Assembly (NCBI RefSeq): GCF_016743815.1
Contig: NZ_CP061035.1
Location: forward strand, 2,172,501-2,236,500
DNA: 64,000 nucleotides
From: Sphingomonas aliaeris
Lineage (GTDB): Bacteria; Pseudomonadota; Alphaproteobacteria; Sphingomonadales; Sphingomonadaceae
Direction: 5' to 3'
Shown here: positions 1,788 through 11,598 of the stretch, in pieces
Layout of the letters: every line of letters begins with the position of its first letter
Position numbering within the stretch: the stretch's first letter is position 1
Notes under the pieces: model-generated
The model's input: the letters and a program-made list of their open reading frames with translations, nothing else
Databases searched by the model: none
What the model was told of the DNA's origin: nothing
Made by a program: the position numbers and the translations under genes

Positions 1788-2969
1788 GTGAGGGTGCTTC
1801 TATACCTGCCGGTGGTGACGCCGTGGTGGTACACGAGCATCATCGAACCGATCATGCGACGGCTTGTAGAGGTGGCGGATGTCCATATCCTTGCGCCTAT
1901 TCCTTGGCGCAATACGGGGATCCGTCCGGAACAGATTTCTAGTTGCCGCGACCTGCCGCAAATTACCTGGCACATTATTGACGACCCCGGCCATACCGAT
2001 CTGCGGTTCAACGCCACAAACGTCCGCGAAGATCTCCTATCGTTCGTTCGCAGCTTGGCGCCCGATCTTACCCTGTGCCGAACCGCTGACTTTGAAACCG
2101 CGTATCGATTTCCCGGGATAGTGCGATTTCTGATGGAGGTGGCCGCTACTCCATTTTACGTCACCCCTTGCACGTCGATGATTGCCGAACGGCCGTTCGC
2201 AAACGGCGTCATGCCCGAACTAGGCGTTGCGGCATCACGCCGTCTGGACGACCTTGTGGACTCGCGCTGGACCGAAATGCGACAGCATTGGGACGCCACG
2301 ATCCCAGACCGGACCGTTTTGCGTGAGGCGCTGAGCATTTCTGATGACCGCCCGCTGCTACTCATGCCGCTCGAATACGACGACAAGGAGAACTTCTTCA
2401 ACGATCATTATATGAGCACAGGCACGTGCAGTCTTGCCATGATCCGGGAGGTCGCGGAAAAGTTCGCAGAGCATTGGCACATCGTCGTCACCGACCATCC
2501 CCTGAATGAACTGTATGTAGATCGATCGAAGCTGCGCAGTGCGATTTCGGCACTTGGCCGCAATGTGCAACTTTCCGAACCGACAGTCGCGGGAATACCA
2601 GCCACGCTGGCTGTGGCGCGGCATGCTAACGGCATGGTGCTCGGCAATTCGAAAAGTTTCGGGCTTGGCGCGCTCTTTTCGGTCCCGATGGTGCGGCGAT
2701 CGGCGTTTGCGAGCGCCGACTGGCTCGCATGCGATACCGATCTGGACAGGTTCGAGCCATTGGCACGGACCGGAAAAACCGCCGCCCCATCACAATCAGA
2801 CGCCCGACGCTGGTTTGCCTATCATCTTGCGAATGAAGCCTTCGATCCGACCGATCCTGATCTAAGCGGAGACGATCTGGTTGATCGCATGACTCGCGCT
2901 GTCAATCCCGATCGGTGGGACGCCGGCATGGCGCGCGTACTCGCGGTCAAGCACGAGCCGGTTCAGTGA
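1788..2969 (+). CDS. predicted capsule-type GT-B glycosyltransferase-like protein
   Basis: A 393-residue protein with GTG start (VRVLLYLPVVTPWWY). I do not recognise a named family with certainty. The N-terminal half looks Rossmann-like. The C-terminal half has LLLMPLEYDDKE, then HIVVTDHPLNE, then GNSKSFGLGALFSVP. This order resembles the nucleotide-sugar half of KpsC/KpsS-type capsule proteins (a P-x-Q/E-x-D motif, then KPHP, then S-x-x-x-G-x-x-A). It is the first gene of a closely packed cluster: its stop overlaps the kdsD start (GTGA at 2966). With KDO-pathway genes downstream, transfer of a KDO-like residue is a reasonable inference. Alternative: an unrelated surface-polysaccharide protein. 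Confidence 0.5.
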   Translation: MRVLLYLPVVTPWWYTSIIEPIMRRLVEVADVHILAPIPWRNTGIRPEQISSCRDLPQITWHIIDDPGHTDLRFNATNVREDLLSFVRSLAPDLTLCRTADFETAYRFPGIVRFLMEVAATPFYVTPCTSMIAERPFANGVMPELGVAASRRLDDLVDSRWTEMRQHWDATIPDRTVLREALSISDDRPLLLMPLEYDDKENFFNDHYMSTGTCSLAMIREVAEKFAEHWHIVVTDHPLNELYVDRSKLRSAISALGRNVQLSEPTVAGIPATLAVARHANGMVLGNSKSFGLGALFSVPMVRRSAFASADWLACDTDLDRFEPLARTGKTAAPSQSDARRWFAYHLANEAFDPTDPDLSGDDLVDRMTRAVNPDRWDAGMARVLAVKHEPVQ

Positions 2970-3967
2970 GCCGTTCCGCAGCCGTTGTCGCGCCGCGATC
3001 CTTCGTAAAGCACGCTTCGGTCGAGTGGTTTACCGAGGTCATCGCATGCGAACGGCGGGCGCTCGAGCGGTTCGAGCATGACATTCCCGACGACGTTTCA
3101 GCATCGGTCGATCTGCTCGCGGCCAGTCTGCAACCCATTCTCTGCATCGGTATCGGCAAGTCGGGCCTGGTCGCTGCGAAGGTCGCGGCGTCATTCTCCA
3201 GCCTTGGCACTCCGGCGTTCTTCGTCAACGCAGCGGAAGCGGCGCATGGCGATCTCGGCGCAATCCAGCCGGGATCGGTCGTGCTACTCTTCTCGAACAG
3301 CGGCAGTACGGAAGAGATCTTGCGTATCCTGCCGTCGTTAAAGGCTAGAGACTGCGTGTTGATCGGCATAATCGGGTGTGCAGCATCGCCTATCGGCAGA
3401 CTGGTCGATCACGCCATACTGGCGGCCGTCGAGTGCGAGGCGGACCATATCGGTATGGCGCCGTCCGCAAGTACCACTTTACAAATGGCGATCGGCGACG
3501 CCTTGGCCATATCGGCGAGCCGGGCGCGCGCATTCACGCGGGCCGACTTTCTTCGCCATCACCCCGCCGGCGCACTGGGGCGGCAAATGACCCCGATCCG
3601 AGCGATCATGAAGACTGGCCCCGATGTTCCACGTGTCTTGCCATCTGCTTCGATGGCGGAACTGCTGGCCGTCATGTCCGGCGGCCAGATGGGGGCGGCC
3701 TGTGTTGTCGATCATTCGAGCGTATTGCTGGGCCTGGTCGTCGATGGCGACATCAGGCGGCATCTGCAGGCACGTCACGACGTCTATTCCACACCTGCCC
3801 GCACGGTCATGAAAAGCGACCCGCGCGTCATTGCACCCGATGCGACCGTCGGCGATGCGATGCTGGCGCTGCGCGGTGTCGGAACGGGTGTGCTCGTACT
3901 GCCCGTAGTCGATCACGATCGACGGCTCCACGGACTCGTCCATTCCAACGACATCATGATTGGTTGA
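2966..3967 (+). CDS. kdsD: D-arabinose-5-phosphate isomerase
   Basis: Interconverts ribulose 5-phosphate and arabinose 5-phosphate, the first step to KDO. The GTG start at 2966 overlaps the preceding stop and gives 333 residues, the usual length. Domains: an N-terminal SIS fold (about residues 25-190) with GIGKSGLVAAKVAASFSSLG, the phosphate-binding SNSGSTEEI and the HHPAGALGRQ histidine motif, then two CBS domains (about 205-330, VVDGDIRRHL and GLVHSNDIM). KdsD/KpsF paralogues serve lipopolysaccharide or capsule. Many sphingomonads carry glycosphingolipid in place of lipopolysaccharide, so the capsule-type role (KpsF) is plausible. The next gene starts within 5 nt of its stop. Confidence 0.9.
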   Translation: MSRSAAVVAPRSFVKHASVEWFTEVIACERRALERFEHDIPDDVSASVDLLAASLQPILCIGIGKSGLVAAKVAASFSSLGTPAFFVNAAEAAHGDLGAIQPGSVVLLFSNSGSTEEILRILPSLKARDCVLIGIIGCAASPIGRLVDHAILAAVECEADHIGMAPSASTTLQMAIGDALAISASRARAFTRADFLRHHPAGALGRQMTPIRAIMKTGPDVPRVLPSASMAELLAVMSGGQMGAACVVDHSSVLLGLVVDGDIRRHLQARHDVYSTPARTVMKSDPRVIAPDATVGDAMLALRGVGTGVLVLPVVDHDRRLHGLVHSNDIMIG

Positions 3968-3971
3968 TAAG

Positions 3972-5288
3972 ATGAAGATCGTCGCCTTCGTTCCTGCAAA
4001 AGGAAGTAGCGAGCGTGTCGCGAGCAAAAATACCCGTATTCTGGACGGCGAGTACCTGTTCAAACGCAAATTACAGCAAGCGCTCGATTGTCCCGAGATC
4101 ACCGAAGTCTGCCTGGATACCGAGAGTGACGCGTTGGCCGCGCTTGCCGACGACTTGCCCGTTTCAATTCTGGCACGTCCTCCAGCACTGGCGACAAACG
4201 ATACGGACGGGCACGAGATGTTCGCCTGGGAATGCGCGCAGCGTCCCGACGCGGACCTTTGGGTACAGTTGCTCTGCACCGCGCCGTTCGTGACCAAGGA
4301 CACGATTTCGCGCGCGATAGCTGCGCTGCTGGCAAATCCTCAGGCCGACAGCCTTGTCGCGGTCAGCAGGTCCAAACACTATAGATGGGAAGGACAGACG
4401 CCAGCTTATGGCGTCGGCCGCATCCCCAACAGTGTCGATCTACCCGCCACGATCGTCGAGGCGATGAGCCTGTACATCGTGCGGAAAAATAGCGAATCCT
4501 GCCCCGCTCGGCGTTACGGTACGAACCCGATACTCTTCGATCTCGATCCACTGGAGCAGATCGATATAAATCTCGTTCAAGACCTGACCGTCGCGGAAAC
4601 GATCGCGGCGGGAGTTCGAGCTGCGGAAGTTACCCGGTTCCGCGCCATGCTGCCGCATCTTTCCTCATCGATATTATCCGATGTGTCGAAGGAGCTTGGG
4701 TTGCAAGTGGTACTGCCGGCGGCGATCCGCCCGACGACTGGCGGCAAGCTGTTGGGAAGAGCCAAGACACTGGAGCTGACGGCGTTGGCGCAGCGGCCCG
4801 ACCGGTCGGTCGGAGGAGCCTGGAACGGCATTTACGATGCGCTTCAATCCTATCGCTTCGTCCGTCCAGGCGACGTCATCATGGTCGCCACCGATTTACC
4901 ACAGCACGCCTATTTCGGGGACCTGAACGCCAATCTCGCGATCCGGTCGGGGGCCGTCGGGGCCGTGATCGACGGTGCAACCCGCGATACGACCGACGTC
5001 CGGGCTCTTGGATTGCCGGTCTACGCCCGCAGCCGGACATGCGACGACATCAAATACGAAGGCACGGTCAAGGCGATGAACCGTCCCATCCGCATGGGCG
5101 GGGTGCAGGTCTGCAACGACGACGTCATCTTTGCCGACGAAGACGGCGTCATCGTCATTCCGCGCGCGCGATGGGCGGAGGTCGAGGACAAAGCCTGGGC
5201 AGTTCTGTCTTGCGAGGCGAATATCCGGATGCAGGCGGCGCGCGGTCGCGACGTGGAAGCGATCCTCGCGGATCATGGCGCATTTTGA
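3972..5288 (+). CDS. acylneuraminate/KDO-type cytidylyltransferase fused to RraA-family aldolase domain
   Basis: About 438 residues from ATG 3972 (MKIVAFVPAKGSSERVASKN); a TTG at 3960 is the alternative start. Residues 1 to about 220 match the NeuA/KdsB nucleotidyltransferase fold: PAKGSS..SKN nucleotide loop, DTESDAL, and LWVQLLCTAPF. Residues from about 235 match RraA-like proteins: LSDVSKELG, PGDVIMVA, then GAVGAVIDGATRDTTD, which keeps the R-D-x-x-D signature of the catalytic (pyruvate aldolase/oxaloacetate decarboxylase) branch. The first half should activate a 2-keto sugar acid with CTP. The second half could cleave or form a keto acid. Some NeuA proteins carry a KdsC-like phosphatase at this position; here RraA takes its place and no kdsC is nearby. 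Joint function unknown. Confidence 0.75.
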   Translation: MKIVAFVPAKGSSERVASKNTRILDGEYLFKRKLQQALDCPEITEVCLDTESDALAALADDLPVSILARPPALATNDTDGHEMFAWECAQRPDADLWVQLLCTAPFVTKDTISRAIAALLANPQADSLVAVSRSKHYRWEGQTPAYGVGRIPNSVDLPATIVEAMSLYIVRKNSESCPARRYGTNPILFDLDPLEQIDINLVQDLTVAETIAAGVRAAEVTRFRAMLPHLSSSILSDVSKELGLQVVLPAAIRPTTGGKLLGRAKTLELTALAQRPDRSVGGAWNGIYDALQSYRFVRPGDVIMVATDLPQHAYFGDLNANLAIRSGAVGAVIDGATRDTTDVRALGLPVYARSRTCDDIKYEGTVKAMNRPIRMGGVQVCNDDVIFADEDGVIVIPRARWAEVEDKAWAVLSCEANIRMQAARGRDVEAILADHGAF

Positions 5289-5300
5289 AGGAAAGCCACG

Positions 5301-6127
5301 GTGCTGAAGACAGTGAAGGTGGGCGCGATCGAGATCGCCAACAACAAGCCGCTGGTGCTCGTTGCCGGGCCCTGCGCAATGGAGAGTCGCGCACATGCAC
5401 TGGAGATGGCACAGGCCATTTCCGGTATCTGCGAAGAAGCCGGCATCCAGTTCATCTACAAGAGTTCTTACGACAAGGGGAATCGGACGTCGATCGACGC
5501 CCCTCGCGGGATCGGCATGGCCGCGGCGCTCGACGTATTCGCAGAATTACGTGCGCGCTTCGGATGCCCCGTGCTCACCGACGTGCATGATGCGAGCCAC
5601 TGCGCGGCGGTGGCGGAAGCGGTCGATATTCTACAGATTCCCGCGTTCCTGTGCAGACAGACGGACTTGCTTGTCGCCGCCGCGCGGACAGGCCGCACGA
5701 TCAACGTGAAGAAAGGCCAGTTCCTCGCACCCTGGGACATGCAGAACGTCGCGGCAAAGATCGCCGCCTCCGGCAACGACGACATCATCCTGTGCGAACG
5801 TGGCGCGAGCTTAGGATACAACACGTTGGTCAGCGACATGCGATCGCTCAAGATCATGGCGGAAACCGGATATCCGGTCATGTACGATGCGACGCATTCG
5901 GTTCAGCAGCCCGGCGGGCTGGGCACGAGTTCAGGCGGGCAGCGCGAGTTCGTAGCCCCCTTGCTCGCGCGGCCGTAGCCGTGGGCGTGGCAGCGGTCTT
6001 CATCGAGACGCATGAAGCGCCGGATCGGGCGCCGAGCGATGGGCCGAACATGGTGCCATTGCAGGAGATGCCCGCATTGCTGCGGAGCCTTGTCGCGTTC
6101 GACAGGCTTGCCAAACAGCCCGACTGA
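5301..6127 (+). pseudogene. kdsA: 3-deoxy-8-phosphooctulonate synthase, frameshifted at a C run (5956-5960)
   Basis: Condenses phosphoenolpyruvate with arabinose 5-phosphate to give KDO 8-phosphate. GTG start at 5301 with GAAGGAAAG upstream, 12 nt after the previous stop. Motifs: GPCAMES (the GPC cysteine typical of the metal-dependent class), [39 protein letters not shown] and [18 protein letters not shown]. At GGQREFVAP the frame hits five C bases and runs into a stop at 5976-5978. Adding one C restores [22 protein letters not shown] through [16 protein letters not shown] to the stop at 6127, about 275 residues, the normal length. Either a real loss of function or a miscounted homopolymer. 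Confidence 0.9.
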
Positions 6128-6276
6128 TCTCGCTTCGACGAACCGACAGAATTCCAAGCGAGGCCGTCATGGCGTTGGTGAAACCCGAAACCTCCGTATG
6201 ATACCCGTCGTATCGGTATTGTACGACATAGCATCCATCGGACGGGCGGTCGTCCGGGACACAGATGGAGGACAGC

Positions 6277-7111
6277 ATGGCTTACGTCACGACAGCAGAC
6301 GGCGTGGAGATTTTCTACAAGGATTGGGGTCCCAAGGATGCGCAACCGATCGTGTTCCATCACGGCTGGCCGCTGTCGTCCGACGACTGGGATGCGCAGA
6401 TGCTGTTTTTCTTGGCCAACGGCTACCGCGTGGTCGCGCATGACCGCCGCGGTCATGGTCGCTCGTCGCAGACGGGGTCCGGCCACGACATGGATCATTA
6501 TGCCGCCGACGCATCAGCGGTGGCCGAACATCTCGACCTGAGGAACGCGGTGCATATCGGGCACTCGACCGGCGGCGGCGAAGTCGCGCGCTATGTCGCG
6601 AAATTCGGTCAGCCGCAGGGGCGGGTCGCAAAGGCCGTTCTGGTAAGTGCCGTCCCCCCTGATGGTCAAGACGGACTCAAACCCCGATGGCACGCCGATC
6701 GCGGTGTTCGATGGGTTTCGCGAGGCATTGGCGGCCAATCGCGCGCAGTTCTTCCTCGATGTGGCATCCGGTCCTTTTTACGGTTTCAACCGGGACGGTG
6801 CGAAGATTTCCGACGGGGTCGTGCGCAATTGGTGGCGGCAGGGCATGATGGGCGGCGCGAATGCACATTACGAAGGCATCAAGGCGTTTTCGGAAACCGA
6901 CCAGACCGAGGATCTGAAGGCGATCACGGTACCCACCCTCGTCCTGCAAGGCGATGACGATCAGATCGTGCCGTACAAGGATGCATCCCTGTTGCAGGCG
7001 AAGCTGCTGCCGAATGCGACGCTGAAAGTCTATGAAGGCTTCCCGCACGGAATGCTCACGACCCATGCCGATGTGATCAACCCGGATCTGTTGGCATTCG
7101 TCCGCGCCTGA
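6277..7111 (+). pseudogene. alpha/beta hydrolase, non-haem chloroperoxidase/arylesterase type, frameshifted at a C run (6654-6659)
   Basis: Start ATG 6277 ([18 protein letters not shown]) with GGAGGA just upstream. Family marks: [15 protein letters not shown] (oxyanion HG), [10 protein letters not shown], the nucleophile elbow [13 protein letters not shown], then [18 protein letters not shown] (acid) and GFPHGM (histidine). After VLVSAVPP the frame is lost at six C bases. The other frame resumes with [19 protein letters not shown] and ends at 7111. The restored length of about 277 matches this esterase/haloperoxidase family. Substrate unknown. It stands alone, 150 nt after kdsA, and is followed by a clear terminator. 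Confidence 0.85.
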
Positions 7112-7483: not shown

Positions 7484-9120
7484 GATTGCATCTCCGGATT
7501 GGACTGTGCTGCGAACATGCTGTGGATCTGGGCGACCACGGCAGCGCCCTCGCCGACCGCAGCAGCCACGCGCTTGGTGGAGCCGGCGCGCACATCGCCG
7601 ATCGCGAAGACGCCGGGCCGACTGGTCTCGAGCGGTAGCGACTCGGCACCGGTGACGATGAAGCCCTTCCCGTCCGTCTCGACGCATTCGCGTGCCCAGT
7701 CGGCATTGGGGTCCGCACCGATGAACAGAAACATGTGCCGCACCTCGCGACGCGTCAGCGTACCGTTACGCCGGTCGCGAAACGTCGCAGCGGAAAGACC
7801 GCTCTCCCGGTCGCCCTCCAGCCCGGCAATCTCGCTGCCGACGTGCAACTCTACGTTCGGCAAGGCGGCGATCCGGTCGATCAGGTAGCGGGACATCGTT
7901 GCCTCCAGTTCGCGGCGTACGACGAGGTGCAGCTTGCGCACCTGCGGCGCGAGGAAGGCCACCGCCTGCCCGGCCGAGTTGCCGCCGCCGACGAGCACGA
8001 CTTCCTCGCCCGTGCAAAGCCGAGCCTCGATCGCGGACACCCAGTAGGAAATACCCGCACCCTCGAATTGCTCGAGATTGGGGATGTCCGGGCGGCGGTA
8101 GCGCGCGCCGCTCGCGATCACGACGGACCGTGCCGTCACGCGGCGATCCTGCGCGCACAGCAAGCGCAGACCCGGCGTATCGCAATCCAGTCGCTCGACC
8201 GAAACGGGAATTGCGACCTCCGCCCCGAACTTGAGCGCCTGATTGAACGCGCGTCCAGCGAGCGCTTGACCCGAAATGCCCGTCGGGAAACCAAGATAAT
8301 TCTCGATCCGCGCCGAGGCCCCGGCCTGGCCACCCATCGCCCTGGAATCCAGCACGATGACCGACAGTCCTTCGGACGCGGCATAGACGGCCGTCGCCAG
8401 ACCCGCAGGCCCCGCGCCGACGATCGCAACATCGAACACGCGGTCCGCGTCGATCGCCGGAACGACTCCAAGGCAGGCGGCAAGCTCCTCGACGCTTGGG
8501 CGCTTCAGCACGGGACCCGCCGGGCAAACCACTAACGGCAGTTCTTCCGGCAAGACGCCGGTCCGTTCGACGAGCGCCCTGCCCTCTTCATCAGAGCGAA
8601 TATCGAGGACAAGGTTCGGAAGACCGCTGCGGCCGAGGAAATCCTGCAAGCGTGTCATGTCTGGGGTGCCCGGGGTGCCGATCAGGATCGTGCCTGCGCC
8701 CCCTTCCTCGATCAAGCTGACGCGCCGGAGGATCAATGCGCGCATGACGATCTCACCCACGTCCGCCGACCCGACCATCAGCGCGCGCAAATGTGCCGGG
8801 TCCAGCGGCAATGCGGTGCAGCCGTCCGGCCCCGCACGCCCGGCGGCGATCGAGGGTCGCCCGGCCAGTTGGTTGACCTCGCCCGAAAATTGTCCGGCTT
8901 GATGAACGGTGATCGTCGCCTCGCGGCTGAGACCGTCACGCCGGACGACGTGGATCGTACCGTCAAGCACCAGCCAGGCCGGCGCGCCATGATCGCCGAT
9001 CGCATAGATCGTCTCCCCCGGATCGAAGCGAGTCTCCGGACCGCTGGCGAAACGGCGTACCGTATCGATCTGCGGCTGTGTCAGGACCGGGAAACGCTGG
9101 TGCTCTCGCGTGTCGATCAT
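7480..9120 (-). CDS. cyclic-nucleotide-binding domain fused to thioredoxin-reductase-like flavoprotein
   Basis: 546 residues from ATG 9120 (MIDTREHQRFPVL). Residues about 15-140 form a cNMP-binding (CRP-like) domain (AIGDHGAPAWLVLDGTIHV, GQFSGEVNQLAG). From about 225 there is a two-dinucleotide-domain flavoprotein: FAD motif VAIVGAGPAGLATAVYAA, GGQAGASARIENYLGFP, NAD(P) motif VVLVGGGNSAGQAVAFLA, and GVFAIGDVRAG near the end. The CxxC redox pair of true thioredoxin reductases is absent; the site reads WVSAIEARLCTGEE. It is therefore unlikely to be a disulfide reductase, although the family is often named so. It forms an operon with the UBP finger protein. The fusion suggests redox activity gated by a cyclic nucleotide. 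Confidence 0.88.
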   Translation of the reverse strand: MIDTREHQRFPVLTQPQIDTVRRFASGPETRFDPGETIYAIGDHGAPAWLVLDGTIHVVRRDGLSREATITVHQAGQFSGEVNQLAGRPSIAAGRAGPDGCTALPLDPAHLRALMVGSADVGEIVMRALILRRVSLIEEGGAGTILIGTPGTPDMTRLQDFLGRSGLPNLVLDIRSDEEGRALVERTGVLPEELPLVVCPAGPVLKRPSVEELAACLGVVPAIDADRVFDVAIVGAGPAGLATAVYAASEGLSVIVLDSRAMGGQAGASARIENYLGFPTGISGQALAGRAFNQALKFGAEVAIPVSVERLDCDTPGLRLLCAQDRRVTARSVVIASGARYRRPDIPNLEQFEGAGISYWVSAIEARLCTGEEVVLVGGGNSAGQAVAFLAPQVRKLHLVVRRELEATMSRYLIDRIAALPNVELHVGSEIAGLEGDRESGLSAATFRDRRNGTLTRREVRHMFLFIGADPNADWARECVETDGKGFIVTGAESLPLETSRPGVFAIGDVRAGSTKRVAAAVGEGAAVVAQIHSMFAAQSNPEMQS

Positions 9121-9420
9121 GCTGATAATGTCCTTGTTTCCGAGTGATCGGCAAAGTCGTTCAGGAACATGACGTCGCATGACACCGCCGTCCACGCCAT
9201 CATACGCAGGTTTGGGTGCGAGGCCGTCCATCGGACCCGCCGCACGACGCACCGGCTACGCCGCACGCCCGAGAGGCATTGAATATGCGCGGCGGAGACC
9301 AGATGCGTGATGGGATATGTCTTCGATCTCCATTGCAACGCGATGGAGTTGCAGTTTTTTGTGCAATCGGTCAGCCTTTGCGCGGAGGTCGCGATTGTTC
9401 GATCGTTTCGGGAGGCGGCA
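9121..9420. other. divergent intergenic region with one weak hairpin
   Basis: 300 nt between the divergent flavoprotein and histidine-kinase starts. No gene is convincing here. A frame open from 9307 joins the kinase, but its extra residues do not look like a signal or domain. CTCCAT (9328-9333) can pair with ATGGAG (9343-9348), with T6 at 9355-9360; this may be a weak attenuator in the kinase leader. No clear promoter hexamers were found. Confidence 0.3.

Positions 9421-11598
<2,178 letters not shown>

Follow-up and report, generated by a model that had tools for sequence, protein, structure and literature searches.

What does an RraA-like, aldolase-type domain do when it is fused to a sugar-activating cytidylyltransferase, in an operon of the type that makes 3-deoxy-D-manno-oct-2-ulosonic acid (Kdo), in a bacterium that appears to lack lipopolysaccharide (LPS)? 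The question is raised by a gene of Sphingomonas aliaeris, located in a stretch of 64,000 nucleotides (contig NZ_CP061035.1, positions 2,172,501 to 2,236,500 of the forward strand), which we call the window and to which all coordinates refer. The gene had been singled out in an earlier note made from the sequence alone. With a probability of roughly 0.45, our answer is that the fusion belongs to a four-gene cassette, together with KdsD, KdsA and a putative glycosyltransferase named GT393 here, that serves sphingomonads lacking lipid A in the synthesis and transfer of a Kdo-type 3-deoxy-ulosonic acid, the RraA half most likely remodelling the ulosonate before its activation.

The fusion protein and its RraA half

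The fusion gene and its parts are the following.

3972..5288, + strand: fusion protein of 438 amino acids, predicted NeuA-type cytidine monophosphate (CMP)-ulosonate synthetase followed by an RraA/class II aldolase-type domain
3972..4616, + strand: cytidylyltransferase half, residues 1-215
4575..4658, + strand: single predicted joining helix, residues 202-229 (AlphaFold model)
4674..5156, + strand: RraA-like half, residues 235-395 (Pfam span)
4920..4997, + strand: aldolase signature D317-X20-R338-D339-X2-D342 (alignment of 123 fusions)

The frame runs unbroken from the ATG at 3972 to the stop codon ending at 5288, the mechanical open reading frame starting at a TTG at 3960. Its N-terminal domain matches CTP_transf_3 (PF02348, residues 5-133, 50.4 bits against a cut-off of 22.6) and its C-terminal domain the RraA-like family (PF03737, residues 235-395, 95.1 bits against 24.5), which together with the intact frame confirms the claim of the earlier note that one frame joins a NeuA/KdsB-type transferase to RraA. 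Structure prediction, proposed in the same place, gave an AlphaFold model with a predicted local distance difference score of 93.7 and a predicted template modelling (TM) score of 0.90, in which both halves are present and linked by one helix. The NeuA fold and the PF02348 match place the first half among the CMP-ulosonate synthetases of the NeuA type, and by family and fold it would couple a free ulosonic acid to CMP. The fusion stays below the cut-offs of the NCBIfam KdsB models, scoring 27.6 bits where 193 is required and 22.9 where 234 is. The NeuA synthetases for CMP-sialic acid or CMP-ketodeoxynonulosonic acid (PpNeuA, 9t4z, and 1eyr) are 24% and 18% identical to the fusion, which differs from them by the added RraA domain and by its position in a Kdo-type operon. 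The CMP-Kdo synthetase KdsB belongs to the same superfamily, and the fusion is likewise placed in a KdsD/KdsA operon.

In the alignment of 123 fusions, every row has R338 and D339; position 317 is acidic in 121 rows (D 119, E 2, G 2) and position 342 in 122 (D 118, E 4, A 1). The stretch reads R338-D339-T-T-D342 in the S. aliaeris protein; the claim that the RraA half keeps the catalytic R-D-x-x-D is thus borne out, and the signature residues are present, so that the loss of metal- and pyruvate-site residues on alignment, named as a refutation, is not seen. Alignment of this half to 3noj shows the metal/substrate signature D/E-X20-R-D, a motif which we take to be one of the two metal/catalysis motifs of the RraA family. 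PMC5065237 reports that one of two motifs for metal binding and catalysis is kept by most family members, and gives R123 a major part in catalysis by the P. putida enzyme. The RraA half retains an aldolase-type catalytic signature; aldol activity itself is predicted.

No matching NCBIfam aldolase or RraA-regulator model reaches its cut-off on the fusion: the model ligK_PcmE (4-hydroxy-4-methyl-2-oxoglutarate/4-carboxy-4-hydroxy-2-oxoadipate aldolase, LigK) scores 71.7 against 304.5 bits, and that of the RraA regulator of RNase E (PRK09372) 37.5 against 136. From this aldolase and RraA-like family (3noj, 3k4i, PF03737) the fusion is set apart by these scores and by the attached cytidylyltransferase. 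The hexulose-6-phosphate synthase-RraA fusion (PRK07028) also carries an RraA domain behind a sugar enzyme, but only the RraA part of our protein matches it (77.5 bits, the cut-off being 593).

The RraA partner follows a cytidylyltransferase clade

In quick trees of the cytidylyltransferases, 11 fused rows (the S. aliaeris protein, 7 of 120 listed relatives and 3 distant fusions) and 2 rows with an adjacent RraA gene split from 25 others with Shimodaira-Hasegawa-like likelihood ratio support of 97-99. None of 500 label shuffles was equally clustered, and the split holds when either long adjacent row is removed. Locus L037, whose match failed the length or stop filter, was excluded from the trees and L054 from those of the cytidylyltransferase. 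The 11 fused rows also stand together in the RraA tree (support 95), in which both unfused partners sit at the ends of long branches. At E<=1e-3 none of 27 loci of other cytidylyltransferases has an RraA match, some of these loci having short flanks (L066, 3.6 kb) and several being near-copies. RraA tracks this clade whether the synthase dependent on phosphoenolpyruvate (PEP) is KdsA, NeuB or of the 3-deoxy-D-arabino-heptulosonate 7-phosphate (DAHP) type, which favours a role in ulosonate metabolism; since the partner follows the clade and not one synthase, RraA most likely acts on the shared free 3-deoxy-2-ulosonic acid.

The two unfused partners illustrate this variety. In genome G058, of the same order as the host, an unfused RraA gene opens a row that continues with NeuB, the cytidylyltransferase and a histidine phosphatase (L053, 8350-11306). 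In G543 (L069, 9177-13015) the row consists of a ribulose-phosphate-3-epimerase-CBS protein, a DAHP-type synthase, the cytidylyltransferase fused to a KdsC-type haloacid dehalogenase (HAD) protein, and RraA; it has the look of a pathway for some undescribed ulosonic acid. Both genomes hold a higher-scoring CTP_transf_3 gene and KdsA, and WaaA occurs in G543 and not in G058. The three distant fusions are those of G202 (50% identity over the full length), G428 (45%, residues 1-375) and G561 (from another class). Each of these genomes also carries KdsA, WaaA and a CTP_transf_3 match that is KdsB-sized (so named by its length), and no KdsA was seen beside the fusion in the flanks examined. The G202 fusion is adjoined by a 426-amino-acid protein without a Pfam match and by an 807-amino-acid protein (L067, 10415-12838), HAD-like by eye and also without one. 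Sialyltransferase-like proteins, so judged by eye and again with no Pfam match, stand beside the G428 and G561 fusions; the two loci are L068 (10446-11357) and L076 (7594-9258). For comparison, the Gram-positive actinobacterium Adlercreutzia has a related stand-alone cytidylyltransferase in a row with KdsA, KdsD and KdsC and no RraA (L039, 6756-9645); polysaccharide-like genes flank this row.

Distribution of the fusion

A search for this domain architecture with kdsA/kdsD neighbours, suggested in the earlier note, did find further fusions. Genome-contig DNA scanned with six short peptide patterns yielded 39 loci, 17 of which (L002-L018, all sphingomonad) encode both halves in one stretch and 21 (L020-L040) a relative of the first half only. 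At the remaining one, L019 of Sphingomonas pituitosa (7524-9094), the fusion is broken and parts of both halves are left between KdsD and KdsA. With our own locus (L041), L002-L019 make up the sphingomonad set of 19 loci. An open frame of 437-443 amino acids occurs in 16 of the 17 fused loci (L009 not included).

A protein search returned 957 relatives at E<=1e-3; the best 120 are 64-90% identical and all have both Pfam domains, and one of them (P0104, 384 amino acids) covers 87% of the query. This search omits proteins shorter than 0.55 of the query, hence most unfused ones, and is weaker evidence against an artefact. Genera among the listed relatives include Sphingomonas, Erythrobacter, Qipengyuania, Novosphingobium and Sphingosinicella. 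The fusion is uncommon. In counts that include the S. aliaeris genome each time, carriers number 1 among 147 genomes at the level of the order, 3 among 385 at that of the class, one of these with a match over residues 1-375, and 2 among 398 at that of the phylum. There was no match among 72,556 plasmid records at E<=1e-20.

Among the literature matches listed, all from open-licence papers, no cytidylyltransferase-RraA fusion was found. Where rraA is printed near polysaccharide or capsule terms, the passages concerned give it as a gene-table entry or, as rraA/menA, as a capsule-locus border, and treat no fusion. The matches listed for Kdo aldolase, sphingomonad Kdo and 4-epi sugars contain nothing useful here.

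The operon and its fourth gene

The other genes of the cassette are:

1788..2969, + strand: GT393, unannotated putative glycosyltransferase of 393 amino acids, with no Pfam or NCBIfam match
2915..3967, + strand: KdsD/KpsF-type arabinose-5-phosphate isomerase (SIS and two CBS domains), whose true start may be downstream of 2915
5301..5978, + strand: KdsA, first part of the frame (PRK05198, 343.9 bits; TIGR01362 positions 2-206)
5954..6127, + strand: KdsA, C-terminal part in another frame (TIGR01362 positions 204-257)

KdsD ends 4 bases 5' of the fusion and KdsA starts 12 bases 3' of it. KdsD scores 219.5 bits against a cut-off of 203.7 with the KpsF/GutQ subfamily model TIGR00393, and 208.5 against 505 with the E. 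coli KdsD equivalog model. KdsA exceeds the cut-offs of its NCBIfam models in spite of its broken frame (343.9 against 242 bits for PRK05198 and 322.3 against 314). With these matches on both sides, the placing of the fusion between KdsD and KdsA in the earlier note proved correct. That note missed a break in the kdsA frame of this assembly, near 5954-5963; KdsA is matched in one stop-free stretch in all 17 other sphingomonad genomes tested.

By tblastn over the 19 sphingomonad loci, the cassette GT393, KdsD, fusion, KdsA is tight: KdsD adjoins the fusion in all 19 (partially in L019), KdsA in 18 (not at L007) and GT393 is present in 16 (not in L011, L017 and L019). In the flanks of these loci no KdsC-type match was found at E<=0.1, as the earlier note had stated for the one locus it saw; the search for KdsC covered the flanks of the loci, also for the S. 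aliaeris genome. A 21-codon match in L014, at E 0.42, looks fortuitous. The setting is a Kdo-type operon, as had been proposed. The further suggestion that it serves a capsule was not supported; no capsule genes were seen beside the operon in the open reading frame lists, which were inspected by eye only.

GT393 was overlooked in the earlier note, yet it belongs to the conserved cassette. At least 152 proteins make up its family, its own included, and no Pfam domain occurs in the 120 listed. The predicted fold is a modified GT-B like that of WbbB, KpsC and KrkA, as judged with VIA-align: in Foldseek alone, epimerases and a GT9 protein rank first at TM-scores of about 0.23-0.30, with WbbB twelfth at 0.45, so the WbbB reading rests on the second look with VIA-align. 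The HP motif of CMP-sugar transferases is present as H237-P238 in 120 of 120 rows. The nucleophile motif QXXXD of the retaining beta-Kdo transferases (PMC12887879) is absent as such; the place taken for it by eye is E196-X4-E201, where position 201 is E in 115 and D in 5 of 120 rows and position 200 is variable. GT393 is about 10% identical to WbbB (GT99), KpsC (GT107) and KrkA (GT140) and was, lacking QXXXD, not assigned to any of these families. Neither the single protein nor its alignment matched any sequence of a solved structure in the searches made. By its predicted fold and HP motif, GT393 looks like a beta-Kdo-type glycosyltransferase.

Frames in the window are split in kdsA (5301-6127) and in an alpha/beta hydrolase gene (6265-7111), and probably also in a histidine kinase gene (9307-11598) and a dehydrogenase gene (293-1264). 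These split genes suggest base-call errors in the assembly; the fusion frame itself is intact despite them.

The host and other sphingomonad genomes

The S. aliaeris genome, at a completeness of 99.88, encodes KdsA only once, in this operon and split over two frames, and its PF02348 matches are the fusion and one frame read as GlmU, in agreement with the remark in the earlier note that no separate KdsB lies nearby. WaaA and LpxC were not found in it. The same searches over 18 genomes (our own and those of 17 of the 18 other sphingomonad loci, L009 left out) gave LpxC in 0/18 and WaaA in 0/18, with controls such as E. coli and Caulobacter positive. The absence of these LPS markers from the host agrees with the expectation that many sphingomonads use glycosphingolipids in place of LPS; passages of PMC7956469 describe Sphingomonadaceae and Erythrobacteraceae as lacking LPS and having glycosphingolipids.

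Each of the 18 genomes has one KdsA, next to the fusion in 16. In Sphingomonas sp. S2M10 (G152, L007) the fusion stands with KdsD and GT393, and the single KdsA is located on a different contig, close to another cytidylyltransferase; the copy of the fusion in G163 (L019) is the broken one. In 8 of the 18, the PF02348 matches are limited to the fusion and at most one frame of 482-552 amino acids that may be GlmU, and the remaining genomes have further matches, several of them NeuA- or KdsB-sized.

Possible role of the RraA half

In the proposed pathway, KdsD and KdsA would, by family, produce a phosphorylated ulosonate, which a phosphatase from elsewhere would dephosphorylate. The N-terminal half of the fusion would attach CMP to the free acid, and GT393, if its fold and HP motif are a guide, may move the activated sugar onto an acceptor. 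A free 3-deoxy-2-ulosonic acid is a 4-hydroxy-2-keto acid and suits a class II pyruvate aldolase. The RraA half would offer a metal-dependent aldolase-type site for this same acid near the activating site, and its reversible chemistry at the C3-C4 bond would most likely remodel the ulosonate before activation, for instance through an altered configuration at C4. We infer the substrate, direction and product of this half. The interpretation in the earlier note is supported in part; the proofreading, degradation or remodelling that it ascribes to this half, and a nonulosonate as the sugar, stay proposals. Remodelling is preferred to destruction on two grounds: RraA and the activating enzyme form one protein, and in LPS-type genomes the fusion occurs beside a KdsB-sized gene. 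Three points limit this reading. Redundancy of CMP-Kdo synthetases is known, so the preference for remodelling is a lean only. The [DE]-X20-R-D signature, present in 13/13 fused or adjacent RraA sequences, also occurs in 11/13 other RraA-like proteins, and being so widespread marks the superfamily and not a particular substrate. Regulator-type RraA fits the fold of this half equally well. A more far-reaching version, in which a bifunctional enzyme alters C4 of the KdsA product or otherwise remakes its C3-C4 bond by retro-aldol and aldol steps and yields a CMP-sugar other than CMP-Kdo, which GT393 as a new beta-ulosonate transferase family attaches to a surface without lipid A, is conceivable but rather unlikely.

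The RraA half might instead be an editing or overflow lyase that splits unneeded or misbuilt free ulosonate into pyruvate and a sugar, the product of the fusion being ordinary CMP-Kdo. This chemistry is that of known RraA-family aldolases, and it would serve any ulosonate and so fit three different synthases; fusing a destructive enzyme to an activating one would however waste PEP, and the LPS-type genomes that keep the fusion beside a KdsB-length cytidylyltransferase would be left unexplained. We consider it unlikely. An ordinary CMP-Kdo synthetase whose RraA half is a scaffold, a regulator or the seat of an unrelated small keto-acid activity is an improbable explanation as well: the invariance of R338 and D339 argues against it, and the separate partner gene of two lineages would be left unexplained by a pure scaffold.

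That the RraA half stands in for KdsC, by taking off the 8-phosphate or by making the phosphorylated sugar acceptable to the enzyme, would agree with KdsC matches at 9 of the 27 cytidylyltransferase loci lacking RraA (including L039, the source of the KdsC query) against 1 of the 24 RraA-bearing loci searched. That one locus, L069, has both a KdsC-type HAD protein and RraA, L053 combines RraA with a histidine phosphatase, and no RraA-family member is known to us as a phosphatase; a mere KdsC substitute is very unlikely. An assembly or frameshift artefact, which the split kdsA, alpha/beta hydrolase and probable histidine kinase genes might suggest, is contradicted by the relatives and was rejected as practically impossible, as the two halves are encoded together, in a single stretch, at 17 other sphingomonad loci from named records.

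If remodelling by the RraA half is the correct reading, bacteria that lost LPS would have retained a pathway of their own for a Kdo-like sugar, and the RraA family would gain a role in building cell-surface sugars. It would also explain, among the rows sampled, why one clade of CMP-ulosonate synthetases has an RraA partner. The cassette points, moreover, to an unannotated glycosyltransferase family, GT393, and to unfused variants of the pair in two other lineages.
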